Shown piece after piece: positions 10,762 to 16,995 of a DNA stretch of 64,000 nucleotides. Under the pieces are notes generated by a model, which made no database searches, was not told where the DNA came from, and was given only the letters and a program-made list of their open reading frames with translations. How positions within the stretch are numbered: the stretch's first letter is position 1; every line of letters begins with the position of its first letter. This DNA is from Bradyrhizobium sp. CIAT3101 (GTDB lineage: Bacteria; Pseudomonadota; Alphaproteobacteria; Rhizobiales; Xanthobacteraceae), in assembly GCF_029714945.1 (NCBI RefSeq), contig NZ_CP121634.1, positions 9,011,001-9,075,000 of the forward strand, in the 5' to 3' direction. The translations under genes were made by a program, and so were the position numbers.

Positions 10762-11085
10762 TCAAAGTGTTGTGAGAAGTAGAGGCATTGCGCCAGGTAG
10801 TTGCGCCTTTAGCAAGGTCGGTAAATTGTGAGCCGCGCGGCCTCGTAAGAGCGCGCGGCTTACTCTCCGAGCTTCGCTCCAAATCGACTTCTCTATCTCC
10901 AATAGCGCTTTGGGCCTCTACAACGGGAAAGCAGGGCCGACCACTTCAGAGATTTGATTACATCGCGGTGCTGCAGCTAATGAAAACCAGGGACGCGTCG
11001 TTCGATAGTTGTGATCCAAGTTCGGACTCCCCCTCGAAGAACACGACACCTCCGAGCGGGACCGCACCTCCCATAAACGTCAGAG
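10762..11085. other. Intergenic region, nothing firm
   Basis: About 320 bases between the HTH gene and the DUF2235 remnant. Apart from an AGCCGCGCG-type hairpin near 10831-10860 I see no gene or signal. The open frames here on both strands are low-complexity and contradictory. Confidence 0.5.
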
Positions 11086-11343
11086 GTTCCGCTATACTCG
11101 CCCCGGTAGCATCACCTGGAGGCGCATCCCGTTGACCACGCGCACCCAAAAACCTCGTCATCTGCTGTGACGCCACCGGCAACGAGATCTCGGAGAACAT
11201 CTCCAACGTCCTGATGCTCTCGCTGCCTGCGCAAGACCGCCAGGACGCAGCCGCGACAGATGGCGCTCTCCGATCCCCGCGGCGGCACTGCGATCCCAGG
11301 GTCGGCCTTCCGATCCCCCGGGGGCGGCACGGTGACGGCACCG
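11086..11343 (+). pseudogene. Degenerate copy of the 5' end of the DUF2235 gene
   Basis: This stretch matches 15623-15855, the upstream region and first 60 or so codons of the intact DUF2235 gene. Shared blocks include CTCGCCCCGGTAGCATCACC, AAAAACCTCGTCATCTGCTG and GAGAACATCTCCAACGTCCT. The GTG start has become TTG, ten bases after ACCACGCGCA are missing, and further substitutions and small insertions break the frame. The likeness stops at GGCACGGTGACGG. It is a truncated duplicate, not a functional gene. Confidence 0.85.
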
Positions 11344-11364
11344 GTAAACAGCATCGCGCGCGCG

Positions 11365-11379
11365 TTAACCATGCATTAA
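11365..11379 (+). promoter_or_regulatory. CtrA-type box upstream of the ftsZ-paralogue operon
   Basis: TTAACCATGCATTAACC holds a perfect TTAA-N7-TTAA, the binding site of the cell-cycle regulator CtrA in alphaproteobacteria. It lies about 80 bases before the first start codon. A further TTAACC half-site is at 11418. Its partner is at 14456-14470. Confidence 0.65.
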
Positions 11380-11460
11380 CCAACGCAGCCTAGCCTGCTG
11401 CAATCGTCCAGCCATCATTAACCCGAAATGCCTTCCCGGTTTGCTCCAGGAGAAGCGCCG

Positions 11461-12075
11461 ATGTCTGTTGCGTTGTTGACGTATGCCGATCTGGGTGCCC
11501 GCCTCAATATCTCGCGCGAGGCCGCGCGGTCGCTGGCGCGACGTCGCGGCCTGCCGCGCTCGCGTTCGGATGACGGCAAGGCGCTGGTGAGGGTTGATTT
11601 CTCCGAGCTGCGGTACACGCCCCGCCCGCGAATGGGCCGACGGGCAGACTCCGTCGACGTCTCCATGGCGAGGATCGAAGCGTTAGAGCCATTTCCGTTC
11701 CGACGGAGTCGGAACGGGGTTCTAAATTCTTATTCTGACGCGTTTTCCTTGCGCGAACCGGTATCCACTTCGCTGGGAAACGCTTCTGAGACCGAGGCTT
11801 TCAAGGCGGAGATTGCGCGGCTCGAAGACGTCGCAACCGCCTACAGGGTGGTGTTCGAGCGCGAGCGTGAGCGCGCCGAGCGCCTCGCGGTCGAGCTGCA
11901 GCAGGCGGGCGCCGAGACGAAGGCAGCCAATGCGTGGGCAACACGACTGGAAGACGAAATGGCGGCACTGCGGACCGAAGGCCGCCCCGGCGGCTCGTTC
12001 GCGGGACGCGCCGCGCTTCGCTTGGGACATCTGGCCGCTTCGATCGTGCAGGCAGACCGCGCGGCCCGCAGGTAG
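11461..12075 (+). CDS. HTH plus coiled-coil protein encoded with FtsZ
   Basis: 204 residues from ATG 11461, preceded by AGGAGA. The N-terminal part (LTYADLGARLNISREAARSL then ARRRGLPRSRSDDGK) is an HTH of the MerR/KfrA sort. After a linker, about residues 95-165 form a long coiled coil rich in Arg and Glu (FERERERAERLAVELQQ). This layout recalls KfrA-like DNA-binding coiled-coil proteins. It lies 51 bases ahead of the ftsZ paralogue on the same strand behind one CtrA-type box, so it is probably co-transcribed. A role in linking DNA and the FtsZ-like filament is inference. Confidence 0.7.
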   Translation: MSVALLTYADLGARLNISREAARSLARRRGLPRSRSDDGKALVRVDFSELRYTPRPRMGRRADSVDVSMARIEALEPFPFRRSRNGVLNSYSDAFSLREPVSTSLGNASETEAFKAEIARLEDVATAYRVVFERERERAERLAVELQQAGAETKAANAWATRLEDEMAALRTEGRPGGSFAGRAALRLGHLAASIVQADRAARR

Positions 12076-12126
12076 CACTCGAACTTTCTTTAAGCCCCGG
12101 CTTGCCGGAGCAATCGCGAGGGAAGA

Positions 12127-13383
12127 ATGACTGGCACCACCGATATTCATGAAATGAAGGCCCGCATCGTCGTGTTCGGCGTCGGCGGCGCCGGCGGCAA
12201 TGCCGTGAACAACATGATCACGGCCGGGCTGCAGGGTGTCGAGTTCGTCGTCGCCAATACCGACGCGCAGGCGCTGGCCATGTCGAAGGCAAGCCGCCTC
12301 ATCCAGCTCGGCACGAAGGTGACCGCGGGCCTCGGCGCCGGCTCGCAGCCGGAACTGGGACGCGCCGCGGCCGAAGAGGTGATCGATACGATCCGCGATG
12401 AATTGACCGGCGCGCACATGGTGTTCGTGACGGCCGGCATGGGCGGCGGCACCGGCACCGGGGCCGCACCCATCGTCGCGAGGATCGCGCGCGAGCTCGG
12501 CATTCTCACCATCGGCGTGGTCACCAAGCCGTTCTACTTCGAGGGCCAGCGCCGCATGCGCTTCGCCGAAGCCGGCATCGAGGAGCTGCTGAAGGCGGTC
12601 GACACCCTCCTGATCATCCCGAACCAGAACCTGTTCCGGGTGGCCAGCGAGAAGACCACATTCGCCGATGCCTTCGCCCTTGCCGACCAGGTGCTCTATT
12701 CGGGCGTCGCCTGCATCAGCGACCTCATCGTCAAGGAAGGCCTGATCAATCTCGATTTTGCCGACGTCCTCTCCGTCATGAAGGAGAAGGGCAAGGCCAT
12801 GATGGGACGGGGCGAGGCTTCGGGCGAGAAGCGCGTGCTTGCCGCCGCCGTGGCCGCGATCTCCAATCCGTTGATCGAGAATCCCTCGATCAAGCGCGCC
12901 AGCGGCCTCATCATCTCCATCACCGGCGGCAAGGATCTCATGCTGTACGAGGTCGACGAAGCCGCGACCCGGATTCGCGACGAGGCCGATCCGGATGCCA
13001 ACATCATAGTCGGCGCGTCCTTTGACGATAGCCTCGAAGGCATCGTCCGCGTCTCCGTGGTGGCGACCGGCATAGACAATCTCGACGCGGAGCAGGCGCT
13101 GCCGGTGGAAACCGCCCTCGCCCAACTCGCCGGAAGGCTGCGCAATGACGGCCGGCGCATCGCCGATCGCATCGAGCGCAGCGCACCCCTTCCGCAGGGA
13201 GAAAGCCCGCCGCTCCGCCCGCAGCCGCATCATCCCGTGGGACCACCAGCAAGGCCCGGCCTGGACTATGCGCGCCACGCGGCGATTGCGCCGCTCCATC
13301 CCGCCAGTCGCGTCCCCGCGCGCAACGCGCCCGACGAGGCCGTTCTCGATATCCCGGCCTTCCTGCGCCGCGCCGCCAACTGA
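12127..13383 (+). CDS. ftsZ: FtsZ paralogue (tubulin-like GTPase)
   Basis: 418 residues. The GTP-binding features are intact: [12 protein letters not shown] near residue 20, the tubulin signature GGGTGTG at 106-112, and the T7 loop NLDFAD, so polymerisation and GTP hydrolysis should be possible. It keeps the C-terminal peptide [11 protein letters not shown], which in FtsZ binds FtsA and other partners. The linker is only about 70 residues, so the protein is shorter than the main rhizobial FtsZ. No ftsA, ftsQ or mur genes are nearby, so this is most likely the second FtsZ and not the dcw-cluster gene. Confidence 0.92.
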
Positions 13384-13561
13384 GCGGCGGCTGGAGGAGG
13401 GATTACCCGGCTCCAATGCCGGACATGGACTGCCGCTAAGCGGCTCCAGAGCGCGATGAGATCAGGCGAGGCTGGTTTGCCGTGAAGAAGGTGCGCTCCC
13501 TCTCCCGCTTGCGCGGGACGGCTCCCGCATATGGCAATATGGACGGCCTGAGCGCGCGCCT

Positions 13562-13691
13562 CGTCCTTCGAGACGACCGCTTTGCGGTCTCCTCAGGATG
13601 AGGCTGAGCGGCATCGTCACCTGTCGAAGTGCTGTCGCGCACTCCGTCCTCATCCTGAGGAGCCCGCCGAAGGCGGGCGTCTCGAAGGATG
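13562..13691. repeat. Palindromic repeat, family D
   Basis: The arms CGTCCTTCGAGACGACCGC and GTCTCGAAGGATG, with TCCTCAGGATGAGG and TCCTCATCCTGAGG inside, are inverted. It lies between two convergent genes. Bases 13384-13561 hold nothing else recognisable. Confidence 0.85.
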
Positions 13692-13720
13692 CGCCGCAAC
13701 GAAGCCAGCGCGCCGATGCT

Positions 13721-14269
13721 TCACGCTGCCGTGCTGCGCGGGCTCTCGGCGGTTTCCGTCTTGTCCGCCTCCTTGTCACGGGACAGCCACGCCGGGAAGC
13801 GAAGCAGGCGCTCGTTGGTGTCTTTTGGCAGCTCGACGGGCGGCGCTTCACTGGCCGAACTCGGCAGGTCCGGCACGGCCTGTCCCGCTCGCACCGCATC
13901 CGCGCGCTGATCCAGTTCGCGCAACAGGGGATCGAGCACGCTGTCGATCTCGCTTGCCACCGACACCAGGAAACTATTGAGCTCGCGCGCCTCGGGCACG
14001 ACCGCGGTCGCCTGCTCGATCGCCTTGGAAAGACCGTCGACGACAGGTGCAAACGCGCCGGCGGCTTGCATGATTCGCGTCTTGATCGCTTCGATCTCGC
14101 CCAGGACGCGCTCGCGCTCCCGCTTTTTCTTCTCCTCGGAAAGGCGGGCTTCGATTTCGGCGATCTGGGCCGTCAGGGTCGTGGCTTCGGATGCGAGTGC
14201 ATCGCGTCTTCCGCGCGCGCGATCGAGATCGCGGCTGAGATGGTCGACTAAGTCGTCCTTTCCGAACAT
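13721..14269 (-). CDS. Coiled-coil protein convergent to ftsZ
   Basis: 182 residues from ATG 14269 (MFGKDDLVDHLSRDLDRARG), with GGAG seven bases upstream. Residues 10-65 form a charged coiled coil (IAEIEARLSEEKKKRERER). A more hydrophobic helical region follows, then a Pro/Glu-rich tail. There is no signal peptide or membrane segment. The frame is open to 14440, but the added part lacks a ribosome site and is built from short repeats. It faces the ftsZ operon and has its own CtrA-type box at 14456-14470, so a joint role in division or filament control is plausible but unproven. Confidence 0.7.
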   Translation of the reverse strand: MFGKDDLVDHLSRDLDRARGRRDALASEATTLTAQIAEIEARLSEEKKKRERERVLGEIEAIKTRIMQAAGAFAPVVDGLSKAIEQATAVVPEARELNSFLVSVASEIDSVLDPLLRELDQRADAVRAGQAVPDLPSSASEAPPVELPKDTNERLLRFPAWLSRDKEADKTETAESPRSTAA

Positions 14270-14557
14270 GGCTTTGCTCCGTAGGACAGGTGTTTTGCCT
14301 TGTAGGACGGCCCTGGCGCGTACCGCCAGCCTCGCCACCGACCGGATGGCCGGATCGGCCGAAACAGGCATCAACTTCAGTCGCGTCAACTTCGGTCGCG
14401 TCACCTGGGCCGGCATGGTGAATCCCCCCATTGCCAACATTAGGCGACCGCATGGTTAACAGTTGGTTAATGTCAACAACCGACGCTGCCACGGGGCATC
14501 ATGCCGGCGTGCCAGGTCACTTTCGACAGGGTCACCTTCGACAAGGTAGCCCGCTCC
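14270..14557. other. Promoter region of the coiled-coil gene with 15-base direct repeats
   Basis: It contains two copies of AACTTC(A/G)GTCGCGTC near 14372-14402, two copies of CAC(T/C)TTCGACA(A/G)GGT near 14519-14550, a GAATC (CcrM-type GANTC) near 14420, and the CtrA-type box. Confidence 0.5.
14456..14470 (-). promoter_or_regulatory. CtrA-type box upstream of the coiled-coil gene
   Basis: On the minus strand TTAACCAACTGTTAACC is a perfect TTAA-N7-TTAA. It begins with the same TTAACCA as the box at 11365-11379. It lies about 190 bases upstream of the start at 14269. Confidence 0.6.
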
Positions 14558-14836
14558 CTACCCCCGAAAATCAATGCTCCGCAGCACGATCCCCGGCGGC
14601 GTGCCCTCGAACTCCGTCGCGCGGTACTTGCTCGCCGCGCGCGCTTCGATGCGGTCGCGGAGGCGGGTGAATTGGGCTTCGCGTTGCTCGGCGCGGGTCT
14701 GCGGGCCGCGTTCGAGGGTATCCATGGCGGAGGTCGAGATCGCGCAGGGGACTTCCTTCGCGCCGTCCTGCATCGAGAACTGGACGATGCCGCGGTCCTG
14801 TTCGTGGCCGATGAAACGGCCGCTGGTGAGGGGCAT
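14558..14836 (-). CDS. DUF1488 family protein
   Basis: A 92-residue cytoplasmic protein starting MPLTSGRFIGHEQDRG, with the DUF1488 pattern of an early beta-strand pair (IVQFSMQDGAKEVPCAIS) and a basic helical second half. The function of the family is unknown. AGGAG is five bases before the ATG. It is on the same strand as the coiled-coil gene, but 290 bases and a separate control region lie between them. Confidence 0.65.
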   Translation of the reverse strand: MPLTSGRFIGHEQDRGIVQFSMQDGAKEVPCAISTSAMDTLERGPQTRAEQREAQFTRLRDRIEARAASKYRATEFEGTPPGIVLRSIDFRG

Positions 14837-14886
14837 GGCTTACTCCTGTTACGCAAGGTGCTTCGCGGCGCGATGACCGCTCGACG

Positions 14887-15027
14887 TCGTCCTGGCCTTG
14901 GTGCGCAATTGCGCACAGGCGCCAGGACCCATTACCCCGGTCGACTTCGTCGAGGTTCGCTGTGGCACAAGCCTCCACACCAACGCGCCGCGGTGGTTAT
15001 GGGTCCTGGCGTTGGCGAGGACGACCG
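14887..15027. repeat. Palindromic repeat, family A (diverged)
   Basis: The arms GTCGTCCTGGCC with CGCCAGGACCCATTA, and TTATGGGTCCTGGCG with GAGGACGAC, are inverted. A nested perfect palindrome GTGCGCAATTGCGCAC lies in the left arm. Bases 15028-15249 hold no gene that I can support. Confidence 0.7.
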
Positions 15028-15593: not shown

Positions 15594-15666
15594 GAGACCC
15601 TCGTCTCCTCGCCGTCGCGCTTTTCCGCTATGCTCGCCCCGGTAGCATCACCCGGAGGCGCATCCC

Positions 15667-16995
15667 GTGGACCACGCGCACGAAACCGCACCCAAAAACC
15701 TCGTCATCTGCTGTGACGGCACCGGCAACGAGATCTCGGAGAACATCTCCAACGTCCTGAAGCTCTATCGCTGCCTGCGCAAGACCGACAGGACGCATCC
15801 GCGGCAGATGGTGTTTTACGATCCCGGGGTCGGCACGGTGACGGAGCCGTCGACCTGGAACAGGTGGAAGGCCAACATCAAGCTGGTGCTGGGGCTCGCC
15901 ACCGGCTACGGGCTCGATGACAACGTGCTCAATGCCTATTGCTTCTTGGTCGAGCACTATGCGCCGGGCGACCGCATCTATCTGTTCGGTTTTTCGCGCG
16001 GCGCCTACACGGTTCGGGTGCTGGCGGGGCTGATCCACAAGGTCGGGCTGATCTCGCCGGAGCAGGCGAACCTCGCAGGAAGTGGCCTCGTCGCCTACAA
16101 GCAATATTCCGGGACCGGGCACGGCAACGACATCGAGGACCTCAAGAACATCGCGGTCGACGACGAGGGCCCGCTGCCGAAGGACGCATTCGACCTCGCC
16201 GCCCAGTTCGCGCGCATCACCTCGACGCGCTGGCCGACCATCCATTTCATCGGCGTGTGGGACACGGTGGCGAGCGTGATCGTGCCGCGGCGCGACGTGT
16301 TCTTCCTCGTGTTCAGCCTGGAGGAGCTCGCCTTCACGCTGCGCAACCCGAGCGTCAACATCTTCCGCCAGGCGATCGCCATCGACGAGCGGCGCTGCAT
16401 GTTCCGCCTGAAAGCGTACGAGGAGCCGCAGGAATACTGGAGCAACCGCTACGTCCCCGACGAGAAGAAGGAGCCGCAGGACATTCTGCAGGTGTGGTTC
16501 GCCGGCGTGCATTGCGACGTCGGCGGCGGCTATCCGGAGGCCGAAAGTGCGGAGTCCAAATATCCGCTGATCTGGATGATCGAGGAGGCGGCGAAGGCCG
16601 GGCTGAACTTCAACCCGCGCACCGTGAACCAGCTCGCCTGGGGTATCCAGCGCAAGAACTCGCCGTTCAGCTATGTCGGGCCTGCCTACACCGGCAAGGC
16701 GGGCATGCTGCACAATTCAATGAGCGCGGCCTGGCGCGTGCTGGAGTTCTTGCCGAAGAGCGCGAAGTACAAGGAATGGCCGGAGCGGAAGGTGTTTTTC
16801 GGCTTCTACATCCCGGATTGCGAGCCGCGCGTCATTCCCGAAGGCGCGCATGTGCATGAGAGCGTGTTGAAGCGGATGGCGGTCGAGCCGGATTATCGGC
16901 CGGTGAATTTGCCGAAGGATTTCGTGACGGTGCCGATGCCGGTGGCGCCGGGGGGCGGTCTTGAGGCGGAGGCGGGGGAGATCGTGACGGGGTGA
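15667..16995 (+). CDS. DUF2235 alpha/beta-hydrolase (Tle1-like)
   Basis: 442 residues from GTG 15667, with GGAGG about nine bases upstream. The protein opens with LVICCDGTGNEIS, the family's N-terminal signature. It carries the nucleophile elbow GFSRGAYTVR near residue 110, with VWDTVAS following about 80 residues later. DUF2235 includes the T6SS phospholipases Tle1 and many stand-alone cytosolic hydrolases. No vgrG, PAAR or immunity gene is adjacent, so this one is better seen as a stand-alone hydrolase of unknown substrate. A broken copy of its 5' end lies 4.5 kb upstream. Confidence 0.88.
   Translation: MDHAHETAPKNLVICCDGTGNEISENISNVLKLYRCLRKTDRTHPRQMVFYDPGVGTVTEPSTWNRWKANIKLVLGLATGYGLDDNVLNAYCFLVEHYAPGDRIYLFGFSRGAYTVRVLAGLIHKVGLISPEQANLAGSGLVAYKQYSGTGHGNDIEDLKNIAVDDEGPLPKDAFDLAAQFARITSTRWPTIHFIGVWDTVASVIVPRRDVFFLVFSLEELAFTLRNPSVNIFRQAIAIDERRCMFRLKAYEEPQEYWSNRYVPDEKKEPQDILQVWFAGVHCDVGGGYPEAESAESKYPLIWMIEEAAKAGLNFNPRTVNQLAWGIQRKNSPFSYVGPAYTGKAGMLHNSMSAAWRVLEFLPKSAKYKEWPERKVFFGFYIPDCEPRVIPEGAHVHESVLKRMAVEPDYRPVNLPKDFVTVPMPVAPGGGLEAEAGEIVTG

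Follow-up and report, generated by a model that had tools for sequence, protein, structure and literature searches.

A second ftsZ gene of Bradyrhizobium lies in a conserved module with CtrA-type promoter boxes: a candidate accessory cell-division system

Organization of the ftsZ2 module

This analysis concerns a second ftsZ gene, here called ftsZ2, and the two genes that accompany it in Bradyrhizobium sp. CIAT3101. All three lie in a 64-kb stretch, hereafter the window, corresponding to positions 9,011,001-9,075,000 of a single 9,368,452-base contig; coordinates below are those of the window. Gene A (11461-12075) and ftsZ2 (12127-13383) form one unit on the forward strand, and gene C (13721-14269) is convergent to it on the reverse strand, the coordinates and reading frames given in a short earlier note on this DNA being correct. 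The named relatives whose FtsZ2 matches at 88-98% are Bradyrhizobium. The genome contains two FtsZ_C matches, namely the copy of the division and cell wall (dcw) cluster at 2.51 Mb, encoding FtsZ1, and the copy of the module. A second ftsZ is present in many Bradyrhizobium, nearly always together with the gene of a predicted DNA-binding partner and often with a third, helper gene.

Both units are preceded by a perfect TTAA-N7-TTAA box, at most about 250 bp upstream. The box of the A-ftsZ2 unit, TTAACCATGCATTAACCA, spans 11365-11382 on the forward strand (core at 11365-11379) and that of C, TTAACCAACTGTTAACCA, spans 14453-14470 on the reverse strand (core at 14456-14470). Exactly two such boxes were counted in the window, as the earlier note had claimed, where 0.03 would be expected, and none of 100 shuffles reached that number. 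The note had further described both as perfect and sharing TTAACCA; both fit the longer form TTAAC-N6-TTAACCA, read on the minus strand in the case of C.

Conservation of the promoter boxes

To the window were added 139 FtsZ2-like loci fetched from the genus, the weaker of the places listed being left aside. An A match was found in 133 of these 140 loci, and 128 of the 133, window included, carry a perfect box upstream of A, mostly 75-82 nt from its start. C is linked to ftsZ2 in 70 loci and is preceded by a perfect box in every one of them. Conservation in orthologous promoters, a check that the earlier note had called for, thus turned out favourably. The A loci lacking a perfect box are L158, L162, L167, L171 and L200; the A match of L200 is the repeat only (see below), ftsZ2 of L171 contains a stop, and L158 and L162 are extra copies in which A is broken up. 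In three of the seven loci without an A match, the box is still present, 253-587 nt ahead of ftsZ2. Apart from the boxes in the two promoter zones, only nine occur in 1.46 Mb of module loci, three of them upstream of A-less ftsZ2 genes.

The eight TTAA letters are fixed amid changing neighbours: 44 different N7 spacers were seen before A and 24 before C, and across all A loci the majority base has a frequency of 1.00 in the core, 0.68 in N7, 0.50 in the upstream 40 nt and 0.73 in the downstream 40 nt. Within the close clade, conservation also covers N7 (0.84) and the 40 nt downstream (0.91), which means that the whole promoter is kept there. An origin of the box as an AT-rich accident was rejected because it is conserved across loci, though the bare core is barely enriched genome-wide.

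CtrA as the candidate regulator

In Caulobacter, the CtrA site is TTAA-N7-TTAA, mostly single and at -35, according to PMC11264516. The extended motif TTAAC-N6-TTAACCA occurs eight times in the CIAT3101 genome and two of these copies belong to the module, a favourable answer to the question of how they rank among genome sites. The other six precede genes for MinC (Pfam MinC_C, 103 bits), FlgB (NCBIfam, 193 bits for a cut-off of 142), an SLT-domain protein, RimP, a small open reading frame (ORF) and an ORF with a Fis-type helix-turn-helix (HTH). Bare boxes precede flagellin and TadE-like protein genes. With a simple ORF caller, 34 of 38 boxes outside the window were classed as intergenic, seven further boxes (L442-L448) being left out of this classing. 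Among 12 further genomes, each contains 5-9 extended motifs against none in the control (one in G008), and the count is alike in six genomes with a single FtsZ match (5-7) and in six module genomes. Both module promoters are among the extended motifs of G376, G021, G378 and G005.

Brilli et al. (PMC2877005) predicted CtrA sites across Alphaproteobacteria, with mention of B. japonicum and of minC as bound by CtrA in Brucella; according to Pini et al. (PMC4433202), minCD of S. meliloti are direct CtrA targets, minC and minD being described there as the only characterised division genes of that species under direct CtrA control. The minC gene of the present genome (L269:753-1448) is preceded by a perfect extended box and is, judging from its promoter, likely a CtrA target itself, with a product acting on FtsZ. 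The module boxes have the same TTAA-N7-TTAA as the minC and flagellar promoters, but the putative target here is an accessory ftsZ unit together with C. Based on box conservation, the co-occurrence of C with ftsZ2 and the presence of the extended motif before minC and flgB, reading the boxes as putative CtrA sites is well supported.

The box could instead be the site of A itself, which would repress or activate its own unit and C, any likeness to a CtrA site being coincidental. This explanation would fit the predicted DNA-binding domain of A and the restriction of C, which has a box of its own, to genomes with the ftsZ2 module. Yet the motif also precedes minC, flgB and other genes of this genome, and the six single-ftsZ genomes carry their 5-7 extended motifs regardless, in several cases with an identical N6 at corresponding genes. 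The presence of the motif in single-ftsZ genomes leads us to disfavour a site of A, which we consider rather improbable.

Distribution of the module

At E<=1e-60, at least two FtsZ matches were found in 131 of 265 genomes of the genus. C, counted at 64% identity or above, is present in 76 of these 131 genomes and in none of the 134 others, three of which gave no FtsZ match (Fisher 7e-31, a value that overstates the association because related genomes are not independent). A and ftsZ2 remain together and C is found only in genomes with ftsZ2, and the synteny check suggested in the earlier note turned out favourably to that extent. Two further genera of the family (G181 and G569) also have A with ftsZ2 and a perfect box. 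At E<=1e-10, A was matched in 48 of 391 family genomes and in 5 of 297 order genomes, where the sole match outside the family is weak. Solo relatives of A (L436-L441) have no ftsZ alongside; a box is present only at L437, and those from Bradyrhizobium have only a near-box.

FtsZ2 is a bona fide FtsZ with a short linker

FtsZ2 (12127-13383, 418 residues) scores 393.7 bits against NCBIfam TIGR00065 (ftsZ; cut-off 295.2) and retains the GTPase signature GGGTGTG, the T7 loop NLDFADV and, as read from the translation, a C-terminal peptide ending in LDIPAFLRR (13342-13380, forward strand). From these motifs, the earlier description of a GTPase-competent FtsZ with an intact C-terminal peptide appears sound. 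Its score against TIGR03483, the alphaproteobacterial FtsZ C-terminal extension, is only 16.7 bits for a cut-off of 62.95, the linker being shortened. Compared with FtsZ1 of the same genome (598 residues), FtsZ2 is 70% identical over the aligned part and shares the GTPase and T7 motifs and the C-terminal peptide, but it lacks most of the linker, its gene lies outside the dcw cluster and its unit is preceded by a CtrA-type box, whereas no box with up to one mismatch was found in 14 kb around ftsZ1. A quick tree of 171 rows separates FtsZ1 (29) from FtsZ2 (142) with a Shimodaira-Hasegawa-like approximate likelihood ratio test (SH-aLRT) support of 99, placing FtsZ2 in a clade of its own.

A second, shorter FtsZ, also termed FtsZ2, is known from the rhizobia Sinorhizobium and Mesorhizobium; Zhao 2021 reportedly deals with this rhizobial FtsZ2. 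By description, the two are alike in being a second, shorter FtsZ in a rhizobium, but the present FtsZ2 mostly keeps its C-terminal peptide and has the partners A and C.

Some FtsZ2 proteins are further shortened and devoid of the C-terminal peptide, often along with loss of A (L195, L198, L200, L201-L214, L254, L255). These have several origins, the 20 shortened rows of the tree requiring at least four changes by the starred branches. Additionally, some genomes have three extra ftsZ copies (L158, L159 and L162 in G236; L202-L204 and L183 in G346), and the box-less copies have a broken A.

The absence of the module from half of the genus, the existence of shortened and A-less copies and one frameshifted copy could point to a decaying duplicate with no present role. 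However, all three genes are under purifying selection, the ratio of nonsynonymous to synonymous substitution rates (dN/dS) being well below one in all comparisons made: 0.13-0.26 for ftsZ2 (10-12 orthologues), 0.26-0.70 for A (12 comparisons) and 0.08-0.29 for C (10 comparisons). Furthermore, perfect boxes are retained, and the degraded module copies are those that lost the box or A. Decay is therefore a very improbable account of the module.

Gene A encodes a predicted DNA-binding coiled-coil protein

Neither A nor C has a match above cut-off in Pfam or NCBIfam. The structure model of A (11461-12075, forward strand) has a predicted local distance difference test (pLDDT) score of 72 and a predicted template modelling (pTM) score of 0.32, and consists of a winged HTH (residues 3-46), a long coiled-coil helix (106-172, pLDDT above 90) and a last helix (180-203), residues 53-105 being unreliable. 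The model thus agrees with the earlier suggestion that one of the three proteins likely binds DNA. A fold search gave weak matches of the winged HTH to BldC, RacA, pSK1 Par and an excisionase, with 8csh (Par) and 5i41/5i44 (RacA) among the best. A PDB sequence search with A returned four hits at E<=1, all chance coiled coils and none a RocS, RacA or Par chain. The C-terminal helix reaches an amphipathic moment of 0.42-0.56 in seven A proteins, a value equalled by 11-150 of 2000 shuffles with the best window chosen.

This order of parts recalls RocS, described in PMC11500499 as a winged HTH followed by a coiled coil and an amphipathic helix, and likened there to Par and RacA by structure match; the structures matched by A (8csh, 5i41/5i44) are the two named for RocS in that text. 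In the order of its parts A is like RocS, RacA and pSK1 Par, which combine a MerR-type winged HTH with a coiled coil, and like RocS it ends in a conserved helix. It differs in being encoded with an FtsZ, and the likeness stems from a weak fold match.

Type III partition systems such as TubZRC also place a tubulin-type GTPase gene beside that of a winged HTH protein. FtsZ2 and A could hence be the filament and the centromere binder of a DNA partition system like TubZ-TubR, an idea favoured by the same gene order and by the weak resemblance of A to pSK1 Par and RacA. But FtsZ2 is a true FtsZ, 70% identical to the FtsZ1 of its own genome, with the FtsZ tail kept, and in the complete genomes inspected the module lies on the chromosome. 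Around the operon (10800-14900), repeat families did not exceed two copies, leaving no sign of a centromere array nearby, and further upstream than the box the DNA shows no conservation. Partition is for these reasons a very unlikely function of the module.

A 34-codon in-frame insert in A of CIAT3101 (11686-11787, forward strand) is absent from the other 11 rows of the A alignment. Nine of the A proteins read carry it, other genomes contain similar, stop-interrupted stretches at scattered places, and we take this dispersed repeat to resemble the rhizobial RIME elements. In some relatives (P0015, P0038, P0055, P0060; L156), the coiled coil of A is enlarged by tandem units of about 50 residues.

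Gene C encodes a helical hairpin with an FtsZ-like tail motif

The model of C (13721-14269, reverse strand; pLDDT 77, pTM 0.49) shows a hairpin of helices 4-87 and 94-127, followed by a disordered tail of low confidence; a fold search gave nothing at E<=0.001 among the families listed. The frame assigned to C by the earlier note stands, but its start, placed at 14269, may lie further upstream, at 14422 or 14440, because 63 of the 70 C loci have another start in frame after the box and ahead of the MFGK start.

The tail contains the motif RLLRFPAWLSR (13778-13810, reverse strand), which resembles the FtsZ C-terminal peptide LDIPAFLRR. Among 70 C proteins, R157, W161 and L162 are identical in all, P159 in 69 and A160 in 65, surrounded by variable neighbours. 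In the ORFs of the stretches fetched for this genome (107,054 residues), the pattern [ILVMF]P[AST][FWY]L.[RK] has three occurrences, namely in the tails of FtsZ1 and FtsZ2 and in C; given that the pattern was written after C had been seen, this is a lead rather than a test.

Six fetched C genes lie away from ftsZ2: three share its chromosome, one at a distance of about 23 kb and two at megabases, and three are on other draft contigs. All six have a perfect box. A seventh extra C, in the second module of G373, where ftsZ is frameshifted, has none. C is upstream and divergent at L116 and L244, where the box is kept. A family of about 300 residues that is 30% like C (C2) was taken to be a separate one, as no box was seen at any of 12 loci viewed (L312-L323).

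A possible role in bacteroids

FtsZ2 might mainly serve bacteroid differentiation, being raised in the nodule and altering division to give swollen cells. According to PMC9927569, expression of two ftsZ genes of B. arachidis (WN72_37760 and WN72_03170) in swollen peanut bacteroids exceeds that in Sophora bacteroids (q < 0.001). Tag order and position arithmetic suggest that one of them is probably the present ftsZ2: ratios of tag to position of 4.78 and 4.80 per kb fit WN72_03170 as ftsZ2 (663 kb) and WN72_37760 as ftsZ1 (7.86 Mb) on the 9,865,973-base contig G002:C1. The present gene may then be one of the two reported as higher in swollen bacteroids. However, both ftsZ genes rise together, the second tag is printed in two forms in PMC9927569, and the module is also present in other genera. 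We regard a mainly bacteroid function as unlikely.

Genes flanking the module

The module is followed by a gene with a Tle1-like phospholipase domain of the type VI secretion system (15667-16995). When the 140 module loci and the ftsZ1 stretch were searched as one set, 59 of them had a relative of this gene. A fragment of the start of the Tle1-like gene also lies immediately before the module, a duplication scar in which 11087-11288 is 87% identical to 15623-15836.

A candidate CtrA-timed accessory division module

No paper on this module was found in the open-access literature, subscription papers being outside the search. We propose, with a probability of roughly 0.55, that it is an accessory cell-division module under CtrA, in which A would anchor a timed FtsZ2 filament to DNA and C would modulate it. 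We infer that phosphorylated CtrA would bind the box at about -35 of both promoters, so that the A-ftsZ2 unit and C would be switched on together and simultaneously with minC and the flagellar genes. FtsZ2, a short-linker paralogue of FtsZ1 with GTPase core and C-terminal peptide, would co-assemble with FtsZ1 or run beside it. A may bind DNA through its winged HTH and oligomerize through its coiled coil, thereby linking the nucleoid, or the membrane via its last helix, to the filament. The FtsZ tail is bound by FtsA, and C, presenting an FtsZ-tail-like motif on a coiled-coil scaffold, could compete for or bridge FtsZ-tail partners such as FtsA.

Several points weigh against this proposal. The bare core TTAA-N7-TTAA is hardly enriched in the genome, with 47 occurrences against 39 for the reversed control. 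The module is absent from half of the genus and C from 55 of the 131 ftsZ2 genomes. The cell-cycle-timed system of three proteins put forward in the earlier note gains from the common conserved CtrA-type box, the A-ftsZ2 linkage and the co-occurrence of C, but these absences tell against it, and nothing in the sequence, conservation or model data speaks for the polar site it had also evoked.

A bolder and more tentative version, to which we give well below even odds, would be a CtrA-timed coupling of nucleoid and Z-filament. A would act as a RocS/RacA-like DNA tether dedicated to the second FtsZ, while C, as a separate protein, would imitate the C-terminal peptide of FtsZ on its coiled-coil scaffold and titrate or bridge FtsA-type partners, and the make-up of the Z-ring could be switched with the cell cycle or in the nodule.

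Rhizobial accessory FtsZ proteins were previously regarded as odd extras with no timing or partner logic. Here, a second FtsZ comes with a dedicated partner, a cell-cycle-type box kept amid changing letters and a co-travelling third protein with an apparent copy of the FtsZ tail. Two questions follow: by what route CtrA might act on the Z-ring in Bradyrhizobium, and whether the partners of FtsZ can be steered by a mimic of its tail. In the bacteria that carry it, the module probably adds a timed layer of cell-division control.
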